NCBI RefSeq assembly: GCF_014697475.1 | Contig: NZ_JACJRV010000053.1 | Location: forward strand, 1 to 48,426 | Source of the DNA: Nostoc sp. FACHB-152 | GTDB lineage: Bacteria; Cyanobacteriota; Cyanobacteriia; Cyanobacteriales; Nostocaceae | DNA: 48,426 bases | Direction of reading: 5' to 3' | Part shown: positions 9,204 to 22,471 of the stretch, one piece after another | How positions within the stretch are numbered: the first letter of the stretch is position 1 | Layout of the letters: every line of letters starts with the position of its first letter | Made by a program: the position numbers and the translations under genes | The notes under the pieces: generated by a model | What the model was told of the DNA's origin: nothing | The model's input: only the letters and a program-made list of their open reading frames with translations | Databases searched by the model: none

Positions 9204-11762
9204 ATGAAATCTCGTTATAGTTACAAAATTAATAAGACTAAAAATCGTGTATTTTATCGAAATTTAATAGCAATAGCCATACTATCTAACGGCTGGTTTC
9301 AATTTCTCCAACCAGTCTTAGCTCAGACTACATCTACAGCTGCCGGTACAGCTATCAACAACCAAGCGACAGCCACCTACGAAGATCCTAACAATCCAAA
9401 CGTACCAATTAATAGTACTTCTAACACTGTAACTGTCACCATTGCGGAAGTAGCTGGTATTTCTCTTGTAGCTGGTACACCCGTAGACAACAACGGTGGA
9501 AATCTTCAAGCAGGTGATCTCGTATATTTTCCTTTTACTATCACTAACGTTGGTAACGACCCAACCCGTTTTCAAATTCCTACCCAGGCTGGGATTACCG
9601 GCCCAGGCACAATAGGCACATTACAATACAATAACAACGGAACATGGACAGATGTTCCTGCTGGGGGCTTCACTACATCTTCTATACCTGTTAATGGTAC
9701 GGTTCAAGTAAGAGTCCCCGTAACAATCAATTCAGGTGTAACATCTGGTCAACAGATTAAAGTTACTTTAGGAGAAACTAACCCGACTGAGACTGCAAGC
9801 AACTCTCCAAGAGCAGGATCTGTTAATGATACTAGAGATGTTTACACTGTTGATAATCCTGATGGTACATCTGGAGAAGTGGCAGGTACACCTGTTAACG
9901 GTGTAGTAGAAGGTAGTACCTCAGCGACAATAACTATTGATCCAAAATATTATTCTTTGGCTACGATACTCAAAACTCGTGGCGTTTATAGCAATAACAA
10001 TACATCAGCAGACATCACAGACGATACCATCAACTACAACTTGAGTTTGCGTGTAGAGTCTACTGACGTTACAGGACAAAGCATCACGCCTTCGCCTTTA
10101 GCAGGTTCTAGCTTACCTGGTATTCCTGGCACAAATATCTTAGTTTCCGATGCTATTCCACTTGGGACACAACTAGCAGCAGCACCAACACCTCCCACTG
10201 GTTGGCAAGTCGTTTACTCCACTACTGCTGTCAGCACATCTGCAAATGCAGCCACTTGGACAACCACGCAACCAGCAGATTTATCTACAGTTACTCGTGT
10301 TGGTTTTATTAAACCAACTATAGATGGTGATGCGGCAACATACCTACCTGCTGATGGACAACTGACGCAATTTTCTATTCAGGTAAAAATCAGAACAGGA
10401 CAGACTGCACCTTTAACCATAGCTAATATCGCTCAGGTATTCGGTAAAACACCACAAACAAATACTCCTGTACTTGATGAGTCGGGTGATGCAAATCCCA
10501 GCAACTTTGACGGGACTCCTGGTAACATGACACCTCCGCCCGATACAGATACTAATGGGGATAACGTACCAGATCAGTTACCGCGCACTGTGCCAGATGG
10601 TTATATCAACGACCCGACTGATCTTAATACAACAGGAACTGATACTGCTGGGAATAATACGGGTGATACGAATAACTCAACAGCAAACCAAGGTGGTGAA
10701 GCTAACGTATTTACAATCAGCTTGTTCTCACTCCTGAACGGGCCAAATGGTTTTCCTAGCGCAGTTGGGCCAACAAATAATAATGATGACTTTACTAATA
10801 AGTCTAGCAATGTACCGGCTAATACTACTCCGGGTTCAACATTTGATCCAAACGTAGTGAGTTTTAGTAATACTGTTAGCAATACAGGTAATCAAGCAGC
10901 TAATATCTCATTACTACCCACGCCACCAGCTAACACAGCTGATCTGCCTACAGGCACCATCGTGACAGTATCTTATAACAACGGTACTACGACAATATCA
11001 GCTACTTATACATACAACGGCACAACTTTTGCATTCACTAGTGGTACTGGTACTGTAGGAGGCAACCCAATTAGTGCAACAAACCCCATACGTATTGATG
11101 GAGTAGCTTCAAATGGTACAGCTAACTATACTGTCGTCGTTGATTTACCTGCTGGTACTCCACTTTCAACAGATACTAATATTCAACGTGGCTTCCCTGT
11201 CCCAATCACCGCATTCATTGATGGTAATAGCAATGGTTTGCTAGATGATGGAGTCACAAACATCTCTATTGATCGCGTGTATACTGGCTATTTGCAACTG
11301 ATAAAACAGTCACGGATTTTATTAGGAACTGGGCCAGCAGTTCAAGGTACTGATGGCACTTTGAGTACTACACCAAAAAAACCTGCACCAGGAAACATTA
11401 TTGAGTACGTTATCCAGTACAAAAATATTTCTGAATCACAACCAGCAAGTGGTAACAATAATGTGATTTTGAATGCAGGCAGTGTAGTAATAACTGAAGA
11501 CGGTACTGTAGCTCCTAATAACTGGGCGAAAGATAATACACCTACCAATAATGTAATTGATACGAGCCATGTTGCTAATTCGGCTCAAGATTCTGGAGGA
11601 ACAATCACATTCTTTAGTGGTGATCCTGCTACAACTCCTGCTACTAATGCCACTAGCGGTACTACTGCGACCACTGATGTCACTAAATATGTAGATACTT
11701 TGACTAATCCGGTTGCTCCTGGTGAGTCAGGAACATTTACCTTCCAACGCAAGGTTAACTAA
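9204..11762 (+). CDS. Secreted DUF11-type repeat surface protein
   Basis: An 852-residue secreted protein. A signal peptide spans residues 1-40 (hydrophobic NLIAIAILSNGWFQFLQPVLA, cleavage likely at VLA-QTT). The mature part is rich in Thr, Asn, Gly and Pro and low in charge. It begins with INNQATATYEDPNNPN, a motif shared with the gene at 12521, and contains Ig-like beta-sandwich modules of the DUF11 kind, for example AGDLVYFPFTITNVGND (about residues 102-118) and PGNIIEYVIQYKN (about 730). An Asp/Asn-rich stretch near residues 430-495 (DTDTNGDNVPDQLP) looks like calcium-binding repeats. No LPXTG, PEP-CTERM or membrane anchor is seen at the C-terminus. Probably exported and attached to the envelope; its partner may be the predicted outer-membrane protein of the same block. 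Confidence 0.8.
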   Translation: MKSRYSYKINKTKNRVFYRNLIAIAILSNGWFQFLQPVLAQTTSTAAGTAINNQATATYEDPNNPNVPINSTSNTVTVTIAEVAGISLVAGTPVDNNGGNLQAGDLVYFPFTITNVGNDPTRFQIPTQAGITGPGTIGTLQYNNNGTWTDVPAGGFTTSSIPVNGTVQVRVPVTINSGVTSGQQIKVTLGETNPTETASNSPRAGSVNDTRDVYTVDNPDGTSGEVAGTPVNGVVEGSTSATITIDPKYYSLATILKTRGVYSNNNTSADITDDTINYNLSLRVESTDVTGQSITPSPLAGSSLPGIPGTNILVSDAIPLGTQLAAAPTPPTGWQVVYSTTAVSTSANAATWTTTQPADLSTVTRVGFIKPTIDGDAATYLPADGQLTQFSIQVKIRTGQTAPLTIANIAQVFGKTPQTNTPVLDESGDANPSNFDGTPGNMTPPPDTDTNGDNVPDQLPRTVPDGYINDPTDLNTTGTDTAGNNTGDTNNSTANQGGEANVFTISLFSLLNGPNGFPSAVGPTNNNDDFTNKSSNVPANTTPGSTFDPNVVSFSNTVSNTGNQAANISLLPTPPANTADLPTGTIVTVSYNNGTTTISATYTYNGTTFAFTSGTGTVGGNPISATNPIRIDGVASNGTANYTVVVDLPAGTPLSTDTNIQRGFPVPITAFIDGNSNGLLDDGVTNISIDRVYTGYLQLIKQSRILLGTGPAVQGTDGTLSTTPKKPAPGNIIEYVIQYKNISESQPASGNNNVILNAGSVVITEDGTVAPNNWAKDNTPTNNVIDTSHVANSAQDSGGTITFFSGDPATTPATNATSGTTATTDVTKYVDTLTNPVAPGESGTFTFQRKVN

Positions 11763-11777
11763 AAGTAATTTATTAGG

Positions 11778-12350
11778 GTGATAAAAATGAAACAGCTTTT
11801 GATAACTGGAATAGGAACAATTTTAATCCTGGGAACCGCTTCATTTATTACTTATTTACCAGGGGTAATTCATGGATTACAATCTAACAGCGCAGTTGCA
11901 CAAAATACTCAAAATAAACAGGCTTTAAAGCTAATTTTAACAGCAGAAAAGCAAGTTTTGCTCAAAGATAAACAAGGTAAGCAAAAAGTTATATGGCAAG
12001 CCTTGAAAGATAAACAAATTGTCAAACCAGGAGATATATTACGTTATACGTTAACTGGAGAAAACACAAGCGATCGCCCTTTGAAAAACATCATTCTCAA
12101 TCAACCGATTTCCCAAGGTATGATTTATATTTTGAAATCTGCCAATTTTATAGGTAATGCCAAAATTACTTATAGCATTGATGGCGGACAGAGTTTTTCA
12201 GAAAATCCCACTATTAAAATTCCTCTACCTAATGGCAATGTAGAAACTAAATCTGCACCTGCAAGCGCTTATACTTCTATTCGTTTTTATACCCCAAATG
12301 TAGCAGCAAAAACTACAGTCAAAGCGACTTATCAAACTCAAGTACGTTGA
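11778..12350 (+). CDS. Small secreted DUF11-like protein
   Basis: A 190-residue protein with a signal peptide (hydrophobic LLITGIGTILILGTASFITYL, cleavage probably after AVA). The single folded unit carries VKPGDILRYTLTGENTSDRPLKNIILNQPI and SIRFYTPNVAAKTTVKATYQTQV, the pattern of one DUF11-like beta-sandwich. It starts 15 bp after the preceding stop and is followed by a terminator-like hairpin, so it forms a two-gene unit with the 852-residue protein. A minor subunit or cap of a surface fibre is possible, but that is inference. Confidence 0.75.
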   Translation: MIKMKQLLITGIGTILILGTASFITYLPGVIHGLQSNSAVAQNTQNKQALKLILTAEKQVLLKDKQGKQKVIWQALKDKQIVKPGDILRYTLTGENTSDRPLKNIILNQPISQGMIYILKSANFIGNAKITYSIDGGQSFSENPTIKIPLPNGNVETKSAPASAYTSIRFYTPNVAAKTTVKATYQTQVR

Positions 12351-12365
12351 AAAATCAATATAAAG

Positions 12366-12408
12366 AAGGATAAATCCTGAAACTCATATTTCAATATCAT
12401 CCTTTTTT
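12366..12408 (+). terminator. Nested hairpin with U-run after the first two surface genes
   Basis: AAGGAT (12366-12371) pairs with ATCCTT (12399-12404), enclosing a second stem TGAAA/TTTCA, and ends in six T residues. It begins 16 nt after the stop codon. Confidence 0.55.
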
Positions 12409-12520
12409 AGCCAACTTATTTCCTAAATCCAATTATTTTATTAAACAGATAAATCTTTAGTGATCAAAATTTAATGAAATTGAAAAATGTTTGTTTCCTA
12501 CATAAAAAATATATAAATAA

Positions 12521-14038
12521 ATGAATGTCTTGATTATTTATAAAAAAGCAAAGCAGACTATCTTTAGGAGTATTTGGTATAAGCAGTTAGCTACCACTCT
12601 TGTATTAGGAAGCTTTATAACAACAGGATTACAGCTAAAATTAACAGCACAAGAAGCCCCAACTATTATTACTAATCAAGCTAGTTATACTTATACTGAT
12701 CCAAATAGTAGTTATAAATACCAAGGAATTTCTAGCCAACTACAACTAGTACCCGCTCCATTAATTAGTAAATTAGGAAAAATTTTAGGTTGTGCTGGTA
12801 CAATCTTACCCGACTATACAGGTGTCTCTGTAGGACTATATGAAACTAATATCAATGATCCCACAGGAACAGAATTAGGAAAGTTAGTTGCCTTAACTCG
12901 TACAGAACTACCAGATACGCCTAATAATAAAGTTCCGCAAGGAACTGCACCAAATATCGAAAATTCTAACCCTTATTTTCTGAGTAACAACCCAGCAGGT
13001 GTTTATAATTTTCTGCTTGATGCGAATAGAGGACAAACTACCTCAGGTAAAACTTATATTTTGGTAGTCTATTCTCCACCAAATTCTATATACCAACAAA
13101 GACGGGTAAAAATTCAGATTGTTGGCAATGACCAAACTAATAACAGTGTGAAGTATATAGCTTCCTCTTTAGATGGGCAACCTTTAAATAGTACAGGTGC
13201 AACTACAGTAGAGGATACATTGTTTGCTATTTCTAACGGGGAAAGACCACAACTTAACTTATTGAGTTTGGCATTTACGACCAATTTGTGTCAGGCGCGG
13301 CAATTGCAGATTATCAAAACAGGCGATCGGGCTACAGCCGAACCAGGAGATACAGCTATTTACCGCATATCAGTGCGAAATTTGACTGATATTGGTCTAA
13401 AGAACACAGTTGTTACAGATAACTTGCCTCTGGGTTTCCAATTTATACCTAAATCGGTGCGTGGAGAGTTAGAAGGTCAAGCTATCAACATTACCACCGA
13501 TCGCAATGGCAATACAATTACTTTCCGTACAGATGCGACTATCCCACCAGAAAAAATTCTGAATATTGCCTACGCTGCACAATTAACACCTGATGCACTG
13601 CGCGGTAATGGTCGTAATAGTGCGATCGCTAATGCACTCAGAATTGACAACCGTCTCAGCACTAAAGATGGCCCTGCCACTCACCAATTATTGATTCGTC
13701 CTGGAATTGTCGCTGACTGCGGCACAATTATCGGTCGTGTGTTTGAAGATAAAAACTTCGACGGTGAACAGCAAACTGGTGAACCCGGAATAGCGAATGC
13801 AGTAATTTTCCTGGAAGACGGTAATCGCATTACTACAGATCCTAACGGCTTGTTTTCTGTCGCTAATGTTCTACCCGGAAGCCATAGCGGTGTCCTCGAC
13901 CTCAGCAGCATCCCTGGCTACACCCTAGCGCCCAACCGTAAATTCCGAGAACGCAATAGCCAATCTCGTTGGGTACGTCTTGAACCAGGCGGCTTAGTCA
14001 GAATGAACTTTGCTGTCACCCCCAGCAGGAGTAAATAA
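12521..14038 (+). CDS. Secreted DUF11 plus SdrD/CnaB-like protein
   Basis: A 505-residue secreted protein. After an N-terminal hydrophobic signal (LATTLVLGSFITTGLQLKLTA) comes IITNQASYTYTDPNSSY, matching the NQATATYEDP start of the gene at 9204. Middle region: about 170 residues with Tyr-, Thr- and Asn-rich strands and Cys residues. Residues about 265-365 are a DUF11 module (GDTAIYRISVRNLTDIGLKNTVVTD...PLGF). Residues about 395-500 are an SdrD-B/carboxypeptidase-regulatory-like fold (GRVFEDKNFDGEQQTGEPGI, then PNGLFSVANVLPGSH). The stop lies 3 bp before the start of the large predicted barrel gene, so the two products are very likely made together. Likely role: an envelope-exposed partner of that outer-membrane protein. 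Confidence 0.8.
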   Translation: MNVLIIYKKAKQTIFRSIWYKQLATTLVLGSFITTGLQLKLTAQEAPTIITNQASYTYTDPNSSYKYQGISSQLQLVPAPLISKLGKILGCAGTILPDYTGVSVGLYETNINDPTGTELGKLVALTRTELPDTPNNKVPQGTAPNIENSNPYFLSNNPAGVYNFLLDANRGQTTSGKTYILVVYSPPNSIYQQRRVKIQIVGNDQTNNSVKYIASSLDGQPLNSTGATTVEDTLFAISNGERPQLNLLSLAFTTNLCQARQLQIIKTGDRATAEPGDTAIYRISVRNLTDIGLKNTVVTDNLPLGFQFIPKSVRGELEGQAINITTDRNGNTITFRTDATIPPEKILNIAYAAQLTPDALRGNGRNSAIANALRIDNRLSTKDGPATHQLLIRPGIVADCGTIIGRVFEDKNFDGEQQTGEPGIANAVIFLEDGNRITTDPNGLFSVANVLPGSHSGVLDLSSIPGYTLAPNRKFRERNSQSRWVRLEPGGLVRMNFAVTPSRSK

Positions 14039-14041
14039 AGT

Positions 14042-17000
14042 ATGAAACTTAAACTGCACAGTGCAACTATCTTTAATCTCAGGCTGATGGGTGCTGTAGC
14101 AGGTACAATCAGCTTTGTGGTCTATCCAACTGTAGTGAAAGCAGAAGCATTCATTCCTGAACCAGAAAATATTGTTCAGGAGGATTTTCAGGCTTCTACC
14201 TTGGATATTGCCCAATCTGAAACTGAGCAAAAGCTTTATCTATTTGATACATTTTTAAATGAGCCTTCTGTCAATACATCAACAGAAGCTCAAAAAGTAT
14301 ATGAAAAGGATTCTTCAGATTCGGATAATAGCAAACTCAATGTCGTTGAACCTCCCTTAACAAAAATCACCCTACAACCGTTCCAACCAGCAACTGATAT
14401 TCAATTGCCTAAAGGGTTACAGAAAATTTCCGCCTCTGTAGACAATCAGCAAAAGCCTGCTTCGGTTCCTACAGCCATCAAAATTCTCAGCCCAGCTACT
14501 GATAGTGTAGTTGATGTGCCGGCGGCTAGTGTCAGTGTGCAATTTCCTAGTGGTAGCCCAGTAGAATTGCGGGTTAATGGTATTTTGGTAGACTCTTCTT
14601 TAATAGGAAGGACAGAAACTGATAGTAATACCAACTTAGTAACGCAGACATGGTACGGGGTTTCACTTAAAGAAGGAGAAAACCTCGTTTCTGCACAAGA
14701 GACAGGTAAAACAGAGTCATCTGTAACAGTACGGATATTAGTGCGGAGTGCGCCAACAAAACTCACGGTAGAAACAGTAGAGTCCCGTATTCCTGCTGAT
14801 GGACGTTCGACTGCAACTGTGAGGGGTCAGTTAATTGATAAGAATGGCAATCTGTCTAACCACGATGCTGTTGTGACTCTGATACCTACTGCTGGAGAGT
14901 TTGTTGAGAAAGATTTCAAACCTGATGAACCGGGATTTCAGGTAGAAGCCAAAGCTGGAGAATTTACAGCAACATTACGATCGCAGTTGCAAGCGCAAAC
15001 AGTGAGAATACGCGCCCTAGCGAATAATTTAGAAGCATTTACTCAATTCCAGTTTGAAACAGCGTTGCGTCCTAGTCTATTGACTGGTGTTGTAGATGTA
15101 CGTCTGGGTGCTAGAGGTACAGATTATTACAGTAGTTTTCGAGATTTTATCCGTCCTGACAAAGATAAAAGCACTCAATTAGATTTTCACTCAGCTGTAT
15201 TTGCTACGGGTGCGTTAGGAGAATGGTTGTTTACAGGTGCATATAACAGTTCACGCAACCTTAACGAAGATTGTAACTGTGATAATCGCCTGTTTGGAAC
15301 CTACCAATTTAACGAGCAAAACTATCCAGTCTATGGTGATAGTTCCACAGTAGATGTTGTTGCACCTTCCATTGATAGTGTATTTTTGCGGTTTGAACGA
15401 ACCTCGAAAATTCCTAATGCTGCTCCTGATTATTTCATGTGGGGTGATTACAACACAGAAGAGTTTGCCCACACATCTCAGCAATATACTGCTATCACCC
15501 GTCAATTGCATGGCTTTAAAGCTAACTACAACTTAGGGAATCTGCAATTCACAGGTATTTATGGCAATCATCTAGAAGGATTTCAACGAGATACAATTGC
15601 GCCTGATGGTACCAGTGGTTATTACTTCCTCTCTCGAAGGCTATTGGTTCCTGGAAGTGAAAATGTCTTTGTTGAATTAGAAGAATTGAATCGTCCTGGT
15701 ACTGTACTGAATCGGAAACAACTGAATCGCGGCCCAGACTATGAAATCGACTATGATCGCGGTACGTTAATATTCCGCGAACCTATTCTGCGTACAGATA
15801 TAGATAGCACTGGACAAGTCTTAGTAAGACGTATTGTTGTTAGCTATCAATACGAAAGCCAAAACTCTGACAGCAATCTATACGCAAGTCGGTTGCAATA
15901 TAATCTCTCGCGTAGCTTGAACCAAGAAAGCTGGTTAGGTGCAACCTACGTCCAAGAAAATCAGGGGGCGCGTGACTTTCAACTTTACGGTGCAGATGCT
16001 CTGATTTCTTTAGGTTCTAATGGTAAGTTAATTGCTGAATATGCCCATTCTACGAATGATTCAGAAGTTATGGGTAAAGTCAGTGGTAGTGCTTACCGTT
16101 TGGAAGCTGATGGACAAATTACCAATGCTATTCAAGGACGTGCTTATTATCGTTTTGCAGATACAGGCTTTGCTAATAATGCCACAGTTAGCTTCGTCCC
16201 CGGACAAACCCGCTATGGAGCGCAATTAACAGGTAGACTTTCGACAACAACAAATCTCCGAGCGCAATACGACCACGAAGACAATTTTGGGATTGCGCCT
16301 CAACCTCTAGATACTTTTGAAGAGCTATTTGCACCACGTTCTGAAGCTATACCAGGGAGTAAAGTTGATAACTCTTTAACAACGATTTCAGCTGGGGTTC
16401 AACAACATTTAGGTAAGGCTACGGTTGACGTTGATTGGATTCATCGCCATCGAGAGGATAGGATTCCAATCAATGCTTTAACTAGTGATTCTAATCAATT
16501 GCGATCGCGTCTGGCTTTTCCTCTTGCCAAAAACCTGACCTTCGCAGCTCAAAATGAACTGACTCTATCTTCTAGTGCGGATGCTGTTTACCCAGACCGT
16601 ACTATCTTAGGACTAAATTGGGCTGCAATCCCTGGTGTGAATATCAGTCTCGCCCAACAGTTTTACAGTAGTGGTCAATTAAGTGGGAATTCGATCACCA
16701 GTTTAAGTATTAATGGTGAACACAAGCTCGGCACAGATACTACTTTGACCGCTCGTTACTCAATTTTAGGAGGTGCTAACGAACTCACCACTCAAGGAGC
16801 GATTGGTCTGAATAATAATTGGACAATAGCTTCTGGTTTACGGCTGAACCTTGCTTACGAACACGTATTTGGCAGCTTCTTTAATCGCACTGCAACAGGG
16901 CGACAATATGCCCAACCTTTTACAGTCAGTCAAGCCGCTTCATCTATTGGTTTTGAGAGTGGCGATAGTTACAGTGTGGGTTTAGAATACAGTGATAACC

Positions 17001-17713
17001 CTGAATTTCAAGCGAGTGCGCGTTATGAGCATCGCACCTCTGCTAGTGGTTCTAATACTGTAATTTCAGCAGCAGCAACCGGGAAAATTTCGCGCTCTAT
17101 TACTGCCTTAGCACGTTATCAACAGGCAAACTCTGCCAATCAAAAGCTAACAGGCTTGGGAGATACGGTAAACTTCAAGTTGGGTTTAGCCTACCGCGAC
17201 CCAAGCAATGATAAATTTAATGCTTTGCTACGTTATGAATACAGAGAAAATCCCGCAATCATTCCTGACACCCTTCTTTTAGGCAGTGGTACAGGTTCTC
17301 AAGACCATACCTTTGCTTTAGAAGCTATTTATGCGCCTAACTGGAAGTGGGAATTTTATGGCAAGTATGCCTTGCGTAATAGCACTTCTTACTTAGCTAA
17401 CGATTTGATAGGGACTAGTACCGTTAACTTAGGTCAACTTAGAGCTACCTATCGCTTGGGATACAAGATGGATGTAGTAGGAGAAGCACGTTGGATAGGA
17501 CAATCTGATTACAGCGAAACGGGCTTTGTTATCGAAACTGGTTATTATTTATCTCCTAATCTGCGCCTAGCTGCTGGATACGCCTTTGGCAATGTTGATG
17601 ACCGTGATTTTTCTGGTACACGTTCCGCAGGTGGGCCTTATTTAGGGTTGACGTTGAAACTCAACGAATTGTTTGACGGTTTTGGACAGCAAAAAATTCC
17701 ACCACCACGGTAG
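14042..17713 (+). CDS. Large Ig-domain plus predicted outer-membrane beta-barrel protein
   Basis: A 1,223-residue envelope protein with signal peptide (cleavage near VVKA-EAF). Residues about 35-145 are Pro/Thr/Ser-rich. Residues about 150-235 form an Ig-like domain (SVQFPSGSPVELRVNG...GENLVSAQE), and residues about 236-345 a Big-1/invasin-like domain (PTKLTVETVESRIPADG...). From residue 350 to the end there are many alternating amphipathic strands rich in Tyr, Gly, Asn and Arg. They include GPDYEIDYDRGTLIF (about 563-577) and a C-terminal run ending LGLTLKLNELFDGF, typical of an outer-membrane barrel. I infer that the barrel anchors or exports the neighbouring DUF11/SdrD proteins. No POTRA, TonB-box or plug domain is recognisable, so it is not an ordinary Omp85 or TonB receptor. 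Translational coupling with the upstream gene is likely. Confidence 0.75.
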   Translation: MKLKLHSATIFNLRLMGAVAGTISFVVYPTVVKAEAFIPEPENIVQEDFQASTLDIAQSETEQKLYLFDTFLNEPSVNTSTEAQKVYEKDSSDSDNSKLNVVEPPLTKITLQPFQPATDIQLPKGLQKISASVDNQQKPASVPTAIKILSPATDSVVDVPAASVSVQFPSGSPVELRVNGILVDSSLIGRTETDSNTNLVTQTWYGVSLKEGENLVSAQETGKTESSVTVRILVRSAPTKLTVETVESRIPADGRSTATVRGQLIDKNGNLSNHDAVVTLIPTAGEFVEKDFKPDEPGFQVEAKAGEFTATLRSQLQAQTVRIRALANNLEAFTQFQFETALRPSLLTGVVDVRLGARGTDYYSSFRDFIRPDKDKSTQLDFHSAVFATGALGEWLFTGAYNSSRNLNEDCNCDNRLFGTYQFNEQNYPVYGDSSTVDVVAPSIDSVFLRFERTSKIPNAAPDYFMWGDYNTEEFAHTSQQYTAITRQLHGFKANYNLGNLQFTGIYGNHLEGFQRDTIAPDGTSGYYFLSRRLLVPGSENVFVELEELNRPGTVLNRKQLNRGPDYEIDYDRGTLIFREPILRTDIDSTGQVLVRRIVVSYQYESQNSDSNLYASRLQYNLSRSLNQESWLGATYVQENQGARDFQLYGADALISLGSNGKLIAEYAHSTNDSEVMGKVSGSAYRLEADGQITNAIQGRAYYRFADTGFANNATVSFVPGQTRYGAQLTGRLSTTTNLRAQYDHEDNFGIAPQPLDTFEELFAPRSEAIPGSKVDNSLTTISAGVQQHLGKATVDVDWIHRHREDRIPINALTSDSNQLRSRLAFPLAKNLTFAAQNELTLSSSADAVYPDRTILGLNWAAIPGVNISLAQQFYSSGQLSGNSITSLSINGEHKLGTDTTLTARYSILGGANELTTQGAIGLNNNWTIASGLRLNLAYEHVFGSFFNRTATGRQYAQPFTVSQAASSIGFESGDSYSVGLEYSDNPEFQASARYEHRTSASGSNTVISAAATGKISRSITALARYQQANSANQKLTGLGDTVNFKLGLAYRDPSNDKFNALLRYEYRENPAIIPDTLLLGSGTGSQDHTFALEAIYAPNWKWEFYGKYALRNSTSYLANDLIGTSTVNLGQLRATYRLGYKMDVVGEARWIGQSDYSETGFVIETGYYLSPNLRLAAGYAFGNVDDRDFSGTRSAGGPYLGLTLKLNELFDGFGQQKIPPPR

Positions 17714-17759
17714 TAGAGACGTTGCATTTGTAGAGACGTTGCAATGCAACGTCTCTACA
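17713..17759. repeat. REP palindrome with an extra half copy
   Basis: A perfect 15-bp inverted repeat (arm TGTAGAGACGTTGCA) around a single A at 17729-17759, preceded by a direct half copy at 17713-17727. The identical core recurs at 18102-18127. It lies between the barrel gene and the transposase remnant, as expected for REP elements mobilised by RAYT proteins. Confidence 0.85.
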
Positions 17760-17788
17760 GGGTAGAAATTTTGGAAATTTGAATAACT

Positions 17789-18133
17789 ATGACACAGCCA
17801 AAATTTAAGGGTAAATACCGAGTCGAGTCCACTCGTTTAATGAATCGTAATTATGCTGCAAATGGTTGGTATTTTGTCACCGTTTGTACAGGCGATCGCA
17901 ACCCTTTTTTTGGGAATGTTAATAATAGTCAAGTCCAACTATCCGCAATTGGCGAAATAGCTCAAAATTTTTGGGCAGATATTCCCAATCATTTCGATTA
18001 CACATACATTGATACCTACGTCATTATGCCTAATCACGTACACGGCATCATTATTATTGACCGACCCAACCAAATCAACGAAAATACGCCACCCGAAAAT
18101 CTAGAGACGTTGCATTGCAACGTCTCTTTGTGA
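17789..18133 (+). pseudogene. Truncated REP-associated tyrosine transposase (RAYT, Y1/HUH family)
   Basis: A 114-residue N-terminal part of a single-stranded DNA transposase of the IS200/IS605-like RAYT group. The family start (RLMNRNYAANGWYFVTVCTGDR) and the metal-binding HUH motif MPNHVHGIIII (His83, His85) are intact. Family members continue for another 70-100 residues to a motif of the type WQRNYYEHIIR containing the nucleophilic tyrosine. Here the frame runs into a REP palindrome (18102-18127) that supplies the last residues (ETLHCNVSL) and a stop, and the next gene begins 25 bp later. Without the tyrosine it cannot be catalytic, so this is a remnant. It splits the surface-protein block. 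Confidence 0.85.
18102..18127. repeat. REP palindrome inside the RAYT 3' end
   Basis: Arms AGAGACGTTGCA/TGCAACGTCTCT around one T, the same core as the element at 17729-17759. It forms the final codons of the truncated transposase. Confidence 0.85.
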
Positions 18134-18157
18134 TCGTACAAATTATAAAAAATATTT

Positions 18158-21100
18158 ATGAAAAGAAAGTTAAAAAATATATTATCTAACAGCAACCTAC
18201 AACAATTAATTACCAGACTTACCATTGGTTTCTGTATTCTGGGACAGGGAATACAGCCAAGCCAAGCTGAAGGTAGCCGTACACTTTACCCTAGTTCTGC
18301 CACTGGCAATAGAGCTAACCTAGAATGGAGTACTGATTTATGGGGCAATCTGATTAGGCGGCGAACTATACTGAAAGTATATGCCCAAAAAGATGAATAT
18401 ATTCTTTTAGGATCTAGTGCTGTCAGAGTCAATAATGGCGATATCCTAGTTTTTAAACCTGGTAACAACGTCTCTGGTAGCATTGGTAGTGAAAATATTC
18501 CCGCAACACCAGATTTTCAATGTTCTACTCAAACAGGACGTGGGGTTATTTCATCTCGCAACCAAGAATTAGCAGGGCCTAAATCTATTTCTGGTACAGG
18601 TAACACTAATGGATATACACCCTGTTACTATCAGGCCCCGTCAACGGGCATATATGACATCATTTTTTATGGCCCAGCTGGCAGTAACAGTACCACATCG
18701 ACAAATATTTTGCCTACTGGTGAGATTAGTTTAAGTGATAGCAAAAATTTTAATACTAATCAGTCAACTACTATTGCAGCGTGGGATGTCACTGTACGCA
18801 GTAGCGACCAAAACTCCATAATAGATATAAATGGTAGATTATTCAGTTACTATCTTTCACTATTTACTGGCCTCAACGGCCGACCGCTCAACTTTTCTGT
18901 CTATCCAGTCACGACAGATGGTTATCGCTACAAAATAGATTTAAGAGGTACAGATCCAAATGGATTCGTTCTTTACGGTAATCAAGTAGGATTTTTTGAT
19001 AGTGATGGGAAAACACCCCTCTATCATGATATCCTGGCGAATGATGCTGTACTTACTAACATAGACGGCAGTACTAGCTTATCTCGTCCTCAATTTCCGA
19101 CATTTTTTACTACCCCAGATACTAACGTACTTCCATATATTGATCGCTACAAACCTGATGGCGCATTTGATAGCACTGGGATTCCTCTTATTCCAATCGC
19201 ACCCACTGTAAACAATTTAAACTTTACAGGTACCGTTGTGGGAAGTACCAGTTCTTTAGGCACAGGTGGTACTTTTACTTTTAACACTAATGTAGCAGGC
19301 AACTACGAAATTATTATCAGTCGAGACGGTGTAAATTTTGATCCCACTAACAGCCAAAACCGTGTACTGCGAGGTGTTATGAACACAGCAGGCGCACAGT
19401 CAGTTACTTGGAACGGTAAGGATAATAGTGGCGATAATTTTCCGGTTGGTACTAACTATCCAGTCCGGGTTAACATTCATGCAGGTGAATACCATTTTCC
19501 CTTGCTGGATGCAGAGAATAATTTTTCTGGTGGCCCTAGCATTACGCTTCTAAATGCTAGTAATCCTTTGGGAAATACAACAGCATTTTATGATGATCGC
19601 GGATACACAACTATTGGTGGTACAAATGTTGGTACTCCAGGTACTGTACTTTGCGGTACTAATCCGCCAAATCCAACCTTTAGCAACACAATTTCTGGGT
19701 TTGACAGTACAACCAATAATAGAAAATTTGGTCAGTCTGGTAATAGTGGCAATACCAATACAAAATGCACTGGTTCTTTTGGAGATACTAAAGGGCTGGA
19801 TTTATGGACTTTTTTCCCTAGCAACACTGAACAAACCCCAATAAATATCGTAGACTTTGGTGTCACCATCTCCGGCACTTTATATCAAGATCTTGATCAT
19901 GGAGATGACTTTGATGCAGGTGAACCTACTTTACCTGCTGGTATTAATGTCAAATTACTGAGATCTAGCGATAACTCAGTTGTTACTGTTACTAGCACCA
20001 AAGCCGATGGTACTTATACCTTTACAGGTGTGGTAAATGGTAGTTATAAAATTCAAGTTGATACTACCAATAGCAACATTCCTAATGTGATGTCTTTGGG
20101 AACACCTAATGACTTAGCTATTACTGTCTCTGGAAGTGCAATAGGAAATCAAAACTTTGGCTTTGATGTCTACAAAGTTTCGCCTCAAGCAGGTAAGGTG
20201 ATTATCAATGAAGTGCTGTACAACGAAACAGGGACAGGAAGTAATGCTAGTACAAACGATGAGTTTATTGAACTCTACAATGCTTCTTCTTCACCCGTTG
20301 ATTTAAGTGGTTTCAAGTTAGCAGATAGTAATCTCATAGCTAACGATAATGTTAGTGAAAGTAAATTTAATTACTCATTTCCTAATGGTACAACTTTACA
20401 ACCAGGACAATACGCCGTTATTTGGATAGGTAGTTCTAGCAACACCAACGCCCAGGCTTCTGGAGCAGCTTTTCAAGCTTGGGTAGGGCTTTCTGCTACA
20501 CTGAGTAACTCTGGTGATGATGTTTGGTTATACGATAACCAAAATCAGATTATTGATTACATTGCTTATGGTACAGGCAGTGCTATTAACACACCCCCCC
20601 CAAGTTCTCTTAATCTTTGGGACAGTACTTATCAGTCTTCCTTATCAGGGGCAGCAGATGCTCAGTCTATTAGCCTAACCCGCAATGGCAACGATACCAA
20701 CATTAGTGCTTGTTGGGAACAAACTACTAGTACCAACGCCAGCCTTAGATGTCCTAGCTATTTACCAACTATAGATACTGATAATACAGGTAATCGAATT
20801 ACTAGTGTTGGTTACAACAACAATGGTAGTAATGCAAAGCTGTTATTAATCAAACGTATTACCCGCATTAATAATGTAGATTTAACTGATATTGTGGATG
20901 GTCGTAGTGATGTGGCCACAAATGCTAACAATTACGTTCCATCACCTTATGATGTTGATGATGATAATTCCAAATGGCTTACCAATTACTTGCGAGGACA
21001 GATAAATGCTGGTGCTGTTAAACCAGGAGATGAACTGGAATATACTATTTATTTCCTCTCAGCAGGTTTGAATAGTGTTAGTAATATTAAATTCTGTGAT

Positions 21101-21430
21101 TTAGTTCCACCTAATACTACTTTTATACCTACAGCTTTTAATGGACAAACGCCTAATGATGGTATTTCAGGAGCAGATCAAGGTATTGCACTAGCTGTTG
21201 GTTCTACTACACCCACAGTCTATTTCAGCAATGCGGCAGATTCAGACCGTGGAGTATTTTACGCAGCAAATGCTCCAGCTACGCCTGCAAGCTGCGGTAG
21301 TAATACTAATGGGGCTGTAGTAGTTAATATTACAAAAAGTTCTGTTTTGCCTAATTTACCTGCGGCTACTGGGCGAGGAACACCAGCTAATTCTTATGGC
21401 TTTGTTCGCTTCCGTGCTAAGGTCAAATAA
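18158..21430 (+). CDS. Large secreted protein with SdrD-like, lamin-tail and DUF11-like domains
   Basis: A 1,090-residue exported protein. The signal peptide ends near QPSQA-EGS. Residues about 40-370 are a unique Tyr/Ser/Gly/Asn-rich beta region. Residues about 376-455 resemble a FlgD-type Ig fold (SVTWNGKDNSGDNFPVGTNYP). Residues about 568-670 are SdrD/CnaB-like (SGTLYQDLDHGDDFDAGEP). Residues about 677-815 are a lamin-tail domain (KVIINEVLYNE...DEFIELYNASSSPVDLSGF, SNSGDDVWLYD). Residues about 950-1090 are DUF11-like (VKPGDELEYTIYFLSAG). It shares module types and composition with the genes at 9204-14038 and follows them across the RAYT remnant, so it probably belongs to the same surface system. 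No C-terminal anchor is evident. LTD domains are common in secreted nucleases and adhesins, but no nuclease domain is visible. Confidence 0.8.
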   Translation: MKRKLKNILSNSNLQQLITRLTIGFCILGQGIQPSQAEGSRTLYPSSATGNRANLEWSTDLWGNLIRRRTILKVYAQKDEYILLGSSAVRVNNGDILVFKPGNNVSGSIGSENIPATPDFQCSTQTGRGVISSRNQELAGPKSISGTGNTNGYTPCYYQAPSTGIYDIIFYGPAGSNSTTSTNILPTGEISLSDSKNFNTNQSTTIAAWDVTVRSSDQNSIIDINGRLFSYYLSLFTGLNGRPLNFSVYPVTTDGYRYKIDLRGTDPNGFVLYGNQVGFFDSDGKTPLYHDILANDAVLTNIDGSTSLSRPQFPTFFTTPDTNVLPYIDRYKPDGAFDSTGIPLIPIAPTVNNLNFTGTVVGSTSSLGTGGTFTFNTNVAGNYEIIISRDGVNFDPTNSQNRVLRGVMNTAGAQSVTWNGKDNSGDNFPVGTNYPVRVNIHAGEYHFPLLDAENNFSGGPSITLLNASNPLGNTTAFYDDRGYTTIGGTNVGTPGTVLCGTNPPNPTFSNTISGFDSTTNNRKFGQSGNSGNTNTKCTGSFGDTKGLDLWTFFPSNTEQTPINIVDFGVTISGTLYQDLDHGDDFDAGEPTLPAGINVKLLRSSDNSVVTVTSTKADGTYTFTGVVNGSYKIQVDTTNSNIPNVMSLGTPNDLAITVSGSAIGNQNFGFDVYKVSPQAGKVIINEVLYNETGTGSNASTNDEFIELYNASSSPVDLSGFKLADSNLIANDNVSESKFNYSFPNGTTLQPGQYAVIWIGSSSNTNAQASGAAFQAWVGLSATLSNSGDDVWLYDNQNQIIDYIAYGTGSAINTPPPSSLNLWDSTYQSSLSGAADAQSISLTRNGNDTNISACWEQTTSTNASLRCPSYLPTIDTDNTGNRITSVGYNNNGSNAKLLLIKRITRINNVDLTDIVDGRSDVATNANNYVPSPYDVDDDNSKWLTNYLRGQINAGAVKPGDELEYTIYFLSAGLNSVSNIKFCDLVPPNTTFIPTAFNGQTPNDGISGADQGIALAVGSTTPTVYFSNAADSDRGVFYAANAPATPASCGSNTNGAVVVNITKSSVLPNLPAATGRGTPANSYGFVRFRAKVK

Positions 21431-21529
21431 TGAAAAATTGAGAATATTAAGTGGTAAGCGATCGCCATACCCATATACTCTATTGTGGTATTAGTTAGCT
21501 CAAATAGCTAACAATCAAGTCTACAGGGT

Positions 21530-22471
21530 ATGGCAAAACCAATTCGGATTCTTTTGCAAACTACAATTCCCACTACTGAAGACGACTGGAGCATTTTTCG
21601 TTTCTCAATGCTACAGGATTATTTGGCATCTCTTCAAGATGAAGCGGGTAATTATTTATTTTCGGTTGTAGCGCGCGATGTCTGCCGACAAGCCGCTTCT
21701 CCGATAGGAGACGCTTCGCGAACGCGTCTACGCCAATCAGACGCAGAAGGTAATGATCCTATTTTAGGTAGCCTTGACCAATCTGATTTTGATGAACTTT
21801 GGTTATTTGCTTTAGATGTTGGTGACGGTTTAACAGCAAAAGATATTGCTGGAATTAATGCTTTTCGCCGACGTGGTGGTGGTATTTTAACCACACGCGA
21901 TCATCAAGACATGGGCTGTTCCATGTGCAGTTTAATTGATATTGGCGACATTCATTATTTCAATACCAAAAATCCTGACCCTGATGAATCTCGGTGGAGC
22001 CGAGATGACCCTTACACAACTTATATTTCTTGGCCTAACTATCATTCGGGTGCAAATGGCGACTATCAAAAAATTACTGTTGTTGAACCTGTTCACGAAC
22101 TATTAAAAAATCCCAACTCACCTTCAGGAGTAATTGAACTTTTCCCTGCACATCCTCACGAAGGCGGTATTGGCATACCTCCCAGTAACCCAAATGCACG
22201 AGTCATTGCTTTAGGAAAAAGCTTAGTCACAGGTCGTGCATTCAATCTCATTGTGGCAGTTGATCATCATCCCGATGCAGAAGGTAACATTTTAGGACGT
22301 ACCGTAGCTACTTCTAGTTTTCATCATTTTGTTGATTACAACTGGGATATTACAAAAGGCTGTCCTAGTTTTGTTGATGAACTACCAGGTGAGGGCATGA
22401 AAAACGAGCCACGCGCTTTAGAAGATATTAAAACTTATGTTCGTAACCTAGCTTTGTGGTTGGCAAATTAA
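21530..22471 (+). CDS. Unrecognised protein with a class I amidotransferase/ThuA-like core
   Basis: A 313-residue protein without signal peptide. DELWLFALDV (about residues 87-96) and INAFRRRGGGILTTRDHQDMGC (about 108-129) resemble the strand and nucleophile-elbow region of ThuA/GATase1-like folds. Several His-rich motifs follow: ELFPAHPHEGG, VAVDHHPDAEG, SSFHHFVDYNWD. I do not recognise a named family and assign no reaction. Residues 51-70 (CRQAASPIGDASRTRLRQSD) are encoded by a palindromic interspersed repeat inserted in frame and are probably absent from relatives. The ATG at 21530 follows 99 nt after the LTD gene stop. It is the last plus-strand gene before the convergent pgk. Confidence 0.65.
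   Translation: MAKPIRILLQTTIPTTEDDWSIFRFSMLQDYLASLQDEAGNYLFSVVARDVCRQAASPIGDASRTRLRQSDAEGNDPILGSLDQSDFDELWLFALDVGDGLTAKDIAGINAFRRRGGGILTTRDHQDMGCSMCSLIDIGDIHYFNTKNPDPDESRWSRDDPYTTYISWPNYHSGANGDYQKITVVEPVHELLKNPNSPSGVIELFPAHPHEGGIGIPPSNPNARVIALGKSLVTGRAFNLIVAVDHHPDAEGNILGRTVATSSFHHFVDYNWDITKGCPSFVDELPGEGMKNEPRALEDIKTYVRNLALWLAN
21681..21736. repeat. Interspersed palindromic repeat within a coding sequence
   Basis: A GC-rich insert containing TCTCC-gata-GGAGA and GACGC-ttcgcgaac-GCGTC inverted repeats, with the palindrome TTCGCGAA at its centre. Its composition differs from the AT-rich flanks. From memory, related GCTTCGCGAACGCGTCTACG elements are scattered through Nostoc genomes. It keeps the reading frame. 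Confidence 0.7.

Follow-up and report, generated by a model that had tools for sequence, protein, structure and literature searches.

The 48,426-nt contig NZ_JACJRV010000053.1 of the cyanobacterium Nostoc sp. FACHB-152 (assembly GCF_014697475.1), the whole of which is the window analysed here, carries at 9204..22471 a block of genes for five putatively exported proteins, which we call A to E. Genes A, B, C and D form a unit whose conservation in related genomes goes beyond chance, and proteins with the terminal domain found in E occur almost only where D occurs in the genomes searched. D is predicted to be an outer-membrane barrel with immunoglobulin-like (Ig) domains, and a very wide one. We propose that A–B–C–D, possibly together with E, make up one outer-membrane display system, in which the C–D pair holds client proteins by their C-terminal domain and displays them; we see the case for and against this proposal as evenly balanced. 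C–D with clients ending in DUF11 domains looks like an undescribed way of mounting surface proteins.

A, B, C and D form a conserved gene unit

The open reading frame (ORF) listing places all five reading frames on the plus strand, as a preliminary description of this DNA had reported, and 3 bp do separate the stop of C (12521..14038) from the start of D (14042..17713). That description had also suggested looking for the C–D pair in relatives. Scanning named genomes with an alignment of D gave 327 relatives, from which the best 80 loci were kept for neighbourhood comparison; six of these have no upstream gene (contig end), and 74 were used for gene order. A (9204..11762), B (11778..12350), C and D follow one another in this order on the same strand in all 74 loci. 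In 61 of them, the last 4 bp of the C gene are shared with the D gene; in four, the two genes are spaced by +3 bp, as in FACHB-152.

E (18158..21430) as a whole is poorly kept: matches over at least 97% of its length are found in 4 of the 80 loci, and elsewhere parts are retained, mostly its end. Across 72 loci, the first downstream plus-strand ORF of at least 300 aa has an E-type motif at its end in 45 cases, an OmpA-type end in 11 and another end in 16. Of 156 downstream plus-strand ORFs of this minimum length, 63 carry the E-type ending; among 210 further ORFs equally long (A–D excluded), none does. Four OmpA-type companions were scanned, each of which contains OmpA and beta-helix domains.

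Across the phylum (244 genomes), D was found in 31 genomes and DUF7925, the domain of A, in 23, each of which also has D. A relative of D is encoded as well in the ATCC 29413 lineage, an example of a laboratory Nostoc or Anabaena strain. D with DUF7925 nearby is also held by genomes G281, G217, G192 and G315. A second, paralogous arrangement without A and B, C′–D′–OmpA/beta-helix client (L154–L160), was counted in six genomes of the phylum among 13 regions picked by choice. Divergent relatives of D are present in the same phylum outside Cyanobacteriia (L151 in G184 and L152 in G171); at L151, A-like, C-like and E-like genes adjoin the divergent D.

The predicted barrel of D and its link to C

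The AlphaFold2 model of D (1223 aa) built with distant relatives (pLDDT 79.7, pTM 0.71) features two Ig domains (14474..15058), with profile matches to Ig parts of GH2 enzymes, followed by a long run of barrel strands (15077..17662). Counting along the secondary-structure line of the model gives about 40 consecutive strands, and we place the predicted barrel at about 36–40. A first model of residues 39–1223, built with close relatives only, had a poor barrel (pLDDT 66.8, pTM 0.55) and was replaced. The preliminary description had named a solenoid and a known porin as the alternatives to a barrel. Structure prediction of D alone yields barrel strands and not a solenoid in the C-terminal part, and no porin family was found in Pfam or in a profile search of solved structures. 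Sequence matches to solved barrels (profile A3; 23 solved sequences, E up to 10) are weak, local and to small barrels. Foldseek matched D to large barrels only in part and singled out no family, a result that is no evidence of a new fold. Of the Ig/Big-1 domains ascribed to D from its sequence, the model supports the two Ig domains; the profile matches, to Invasin_D3 and Big_1, are weak and below cut-off.

D had also been described as lacking a plug. This agrees with the family searches, in which D matched neither a plug nor a TonB-dependent-receptor domain at E up to 0.1 (Pfam, NCBIfam), and is qualified by a 62-residue insert (residues 526–587; 15617..15802) after the eighth strand. The insert forms short strands in the model and lies within the most conserved stretch of the family; of the 35 columns that are invariant in alignment A8, 12 lie within model residues 379–437. 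It could sit in the pore as a plug or constriction. A wide barrel with a conserved insert would suit a specific uptake channel, with A–E as surface capture proteins feeding D. Database names point the same way: the D family comprises 1,623 matches among 7,991 scored candidates, and many of the 120 best matches (P0002–P0120) are named TonB-dependent receptor in public annotation. Despite these names, the plug and receptor barrel domains of that class are not found in D, and its relatives carry fusions with DUF11 and OmpA domains, which are unusual for importers. We regard a role in uptake as improbable.

Distant relatives of D occur outside Cyanobacteria. Some are about as long as D; others unite a C-like and a D-like part in a single polypeptide. 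Residues 259–499 of C match 438–674 of P0164 (28%, E 4e-26), and residues 146–1209 of D match 720–1723 of the same protein (25%, E 5e-74). In P0135, an OmpA domain (567–662) lies between the C-like and the D-like part of one polypeptide. The pairing of C with D, put forward earlier from their adjacency, recurs here within single chains. These DUF11/OmpA/barrel fusions of Proteobacteria and others (P0135, P0136, P0164) are unlike the separate C and D of FACHB-152, and we found no characterization of them. OmpA domains bind peptidoglycan. Since such a domain stands on the N-terminal side of the barrel in P0135, this side is likely periplasmic, and C and the Ig side of D would face the periplasm. 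Plasmid records of Acinetobacter haemolyticus and [Synechococcus] sp. NIES-970 contain related gene sets. Related DUF11/barrel gene sets are also present on Deinococcus radiodurans plasmid MP1 (DR_RS15635–15655; L162) and on Thermus thermophilus HB8 pTT27 (TTH_RS10905–10925; L163).

The loci in Deinococcus and Thermus would favour a different role for D: a structural anchor tethering the outer membrane to the cell wall, with the DUF11 proteins as a bound surface layer or lattice and no transport by D. The model for such a role is SlpA/SDBC of Deinococcus, described as a barrel of 30 strands that connects the outer membrane with the cell wall (PMC9388160). As predicted for D, it is a large barrel with an N-terminal periplasmic part, and the Foldseek list for D is headed by SlpA and the SDBC barrel. 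Relatives of D fuse or co-encode OmpA peptidoglycan-binding domains, including the 11 OmpA-type ORFs that come first after D, which suggests contact with the cell wall. However, the TM-scores with SlpA/SDBC are low (0.21–0.24), SlpA is absent from the profile search, and D has no SLH domain (Pfam). In the models, D has Ig domains and an N-terminal stretch of uncertain structure, with no helical stalk like the coiled-coil stalk of SlpA, and D comes with clients. A search of the FACHB-152 genome for one of the OmpA companions returned no relative, which counts against the display system as well. A tether alone would also leave unexplained the C-terminal domain that tracks D (see below). We consider this role unlikely.

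A shared C-terminal domain and its co-occurrence with D

Seven proteins of the interval were scanned with Pfam and NCBIfam at curated cut-offs. A (852 aa) contains DUF7925 over cut-off (Pfam, E 1e-64) and a DUF11-like C-terminal end (11385..11759, limits approximate and set by reading) that closes in FQRKVN. B (190 aa) carries the DUF11-type repeat TIGR01451 (NCBIfam, E 6.9e-8) and ends in a domain of this type with YQTQVR. C (505 aa) has Pfam DUF11 over cut-off, TIGR01451 likewise, and an SdrD-B match below cut-off (28.3 of 29.7 bits). E (1090 aa) had been said to mix FlgD-Ig-like, SdrD, lamin-tail and DUF11-like domains; lamin-tail, SdrD-B and TIGR01451 are over cut-off, and FlgD-Ig is below it.

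We disagree with the preliminary description where it saw no recognizable sorting tag in these proteins. The C-terminus of A, B and E is in each case formed by a DUF11-type domain whose last residues are conserved; by reading, the chain stops straight after a DUF11-type strand. At 62 of 74 loci A closes with F[QRK]R[KRQT][VM]N, and at 67 of 74 B closes with Yxx[QK]V[RK]. The terminal domain of E (20978..21427) ends SYGFVRFRAKVK-stop. Because this domain co-occurs with D, we regard it as a candidate sorting or attachment domain that had been missed.

A profile of the terminal domain was built from 20 E-type domains, all from loci with D (alignment A4). Both the domain and D were sought in one set of 148 genomes of the order, a match with E below 1e-20 counting as strong. 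Strong matches occur in 65 genomes: 63 of the 67 with D and 2 of the 81 without it (Fisher p 3e-34, uncorrected for relatedness). By genus (n = 81), 41 have both, one has the client only, two have D only and 37 have neither. Among the matches listed, genera g18, g22, g25 and g30 each contain genomes with both and one with neither; genus g56 is discordant for the two. Weak terminal-domain matches alone are found in ten genomes, and since these mostly lack D (one of them has it), DUF11-like sequence in general seems not to track D. Through this co-occurrence, the clients too are linked to C–D.

The terminal domain stands at the C-terminus, with the stop within 3 residues, in all 30 places fetched (the best-scoring of 98 with E below 1e-20). 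Clients may lie off the contig that carries D: in G084, D is on C3 and the clients are on C6 and C9, and in G104, too, clients and D lie on different contigs. The six clients that were scanned vary in the part before the shared end, with DUF11 or DUF7933 arrays or a GEVED domain; a lectin-like match in the upstream part of a client is far below cut-off. The FACHB-152 genome holds one D, one DUF11 family match (in C) and one terminal-domain client (E).

The co-occurrence is partly phylogenetic, which would suit co-inherited envelope genes that share regulation and do not cooperate physically. Such an explanation fits poorly with the relatives that have C and D as parts of a single chain, with the 4-bp overlap of their genes, and with the co-variation of D and the terminal domain within four genera and their joint loss in one. 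Two genomes of one genus retain only D remnants of roughly 120 codons that are interrupted by an in-frame stop (L201 in G037:C42, and G060:C1:5804313-5804672), and both lack strong clients. Co-inheritance alone seems to us very improbable.

Several points weigh against the display system. The terminal-domain profile was derived from clients next to D and favours D-linked subtypes, and the lack of correction for relatedness bears on the p value given above. Absence of D was scored from a single-sequence search, with a distant-profile recheck covering G073 and G026. In G073 (99% complete), clients are present and D was not detected even by the distant profile; in G026, the absence of D is unreadable, with 6,000 masked N in 14,000 bases beside the client and a 26,976-residue frame that is a masking artefact. 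D without a strong client is found in G002, in G138 (82% complete) and, as the remnants, in G037 and G060. Eight of the 31 genomes with D have no detected DUF7925, so that A is dispensable or diverged there. Finally, co-occurrence alone is no proof of export through D.

Proposed mechanism and relation to known systems

In the proposed display system, Sec would carry A–E over the inner membrane, as suggested by signal sequences that were judged by eye in all five proteins. D would be inserted in the outer membrane as a very wide barrel, its N-terminal Ig domains toward the periplasm, and C, which may serve the barrel as a receptor or clamp in the periplasm, would dock on the periplasmic face of D. 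The candidate clients A, B and E would be recognized by their C-terminal DUF11-type domain and held at the base by C–D. The rest of the client would be exposed outside, either threaded through D or as a short fibre grown outward, with A as a candidate subunit and E as a candidate tip or surface client. We infer the location, binding, export and fibre formation of A–E alike.

The least certain step is one in which the N-terminal hairpin of C or A would complete the terminal DUF11 domain of a client, like the donor strands of chaperone–usher systems. A and C had been noted to share an NQAxxTYxDP N-terminus, and hhalign indeed matches profiles of the two N-termini, with 19 aligned columns, a probability of 86% and P 4.5e-6. 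The hairpin-like segment covers residues 48–80 of A (9345..9443; GTAINNQATATYEDP...SNTVTVTI) and residues 47–78 of C (12659..12754; NQASYTYTDP), and a similar segment stands near the N-terminus of fused relatives. A strict pattern locates the motif close to the N-terminus of 11 among 21 relatives with 1600 aa or more, versus 1 of 48 below 1380 aa, a rough count that missed several similar N-termini and left out 10 of 79 proteins (1380–1599 aa). A canonical DUF11 domain has a strand and then a final hairpin (NTAxV...NN...; alignment A5); client ends seem to halt at the strand, and the mature N-termini of A and C resemble the last hairpin alone, the segment of A only weakly. Scored with a model of this hairpin, A and C reach median values of 4.0 and 0.8 bits, compared with −2.0 for B, −1.6 for D, −1.6 for E and −3.5 for 542 other ORFs. 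We offer it as a weakly supported speculation that the NQAxxTYxDP segment is the missing last hairpin of the client domain, and that subunits would be joined by split-domain complementation.

A number of results tell against this step. The hairpin scores are low and the orthologues are non-independent. In hhalign comparisons with the complete DUF11 domain, the N-terminus of A falls in the right register at 0.5%, which is not significant, that of C has no match, and the client end aligns with the first part only (45 columns, 60%). Client ends were not placed by a DUF11 model from C orthologues; with a model built on the repeats inside clients, local alignment positioned a few of them and left most unplaced. 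If the step holds, A, with a hairpin and an incomplete end, could chain, and E, with an incomplete end alone, could cap the tip. The resulting picture, an undescribed assembly machine of a barrel, a receptor C and clients lacking the last DUF11 hairpin, in which the hairpin of C anchors, A chains and E caps the tip, is in our view rather unlikely. We are just as tentative in extending the same machine from Cyanobacteria to fused or rearranged forms in Deinococcota and Proteobacteria, with a barrel at least as large as the largest solved, or about its size.

SprA of the type IX secretion system (T9SS) resembles what is predicted for D in being a very large single-chain barrel, of 36 strands; its clients, like those proposed here, have a C-terminal beta-sandwich domain and are in part encoded away from the barrel. 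A SprA row (8gl6) appears in Foldseek at E 2e-7 but with TM-scores of 0.18/0.11. No SprA family was found in D (Pfam, NCBIfam) and no SprA chain among the 23 solved sequences at E up to 10, and the N-terminal Ig domains on its barrel distinguish D from SprA. A, B and E have no T9SS sorting domain (Por_Secre_tail in Pfam) and carry a DUF11-type terminal domain instead, so that the likeness is one of analogy only. As for chaperone–usher systems (FimD/PapC), no usher or pilus-chaperone family was found in the seven scanned proteins, and the predicted strands of D exceed the 24 of the usher barrel.

DUF11 Ig-like domains do build surface filaments in GhlA, and GhlA and GhpA are described as grappling hooks (PMC13319060). 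These are giant single chains, and GhlA belongs to Chloroflexota, said to lack BAM genes; the accessible part of that paper does not mention a C–D pair (PMC13319060). In another study, a DUF11 protein served as a signal peptide source (PMC13297417). Two papers considered as DUF11 literature (PMC10272220, PMC3751524) concern other DUF numbers and were set aside. No description of the A–E gene set was found in a literature search outside which most subscription papers lie.

The preliminary description had treated 9204..22471 as one block; this stands for A–E, and two further reading frames of the interval are not counted as members. Between D and E, 17789–18133 encodes a 114-aa fragment resembling a REP-associated tyrosine transposase (below cut-off), which is matched in 14 of the 80 related loci, several times directly 3′ of D. 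After E, 21530–22471 encodes a 313-aa protein with no Pfam match at E up to 1; this protein and the PGK gene after it are each matched in 3 of the 80 loci. Promoter and terminator scans stayed at shuffle level (31 vs 35.0 and 10 vs 9.4) and were not used to define a transcription unit.

Large exported proteins of the DUF11 type are widespread, and no general path that takes them to the cell surface is known to us. If C–D handles them, Cyanobacteria would have a dedicated display system, and the family of D would be explained, including its many members that carry the automatic annotation TonB-dependent receptor and lack the domains of that class. The terminal domain would then offer a tag for protein display on cyanobacterial cells. 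Should the hairpin reading also be true, the system would represent a separate invention of donor-type fibre assembly, or of C-terminal-domain secretion outside Bacteroidota.

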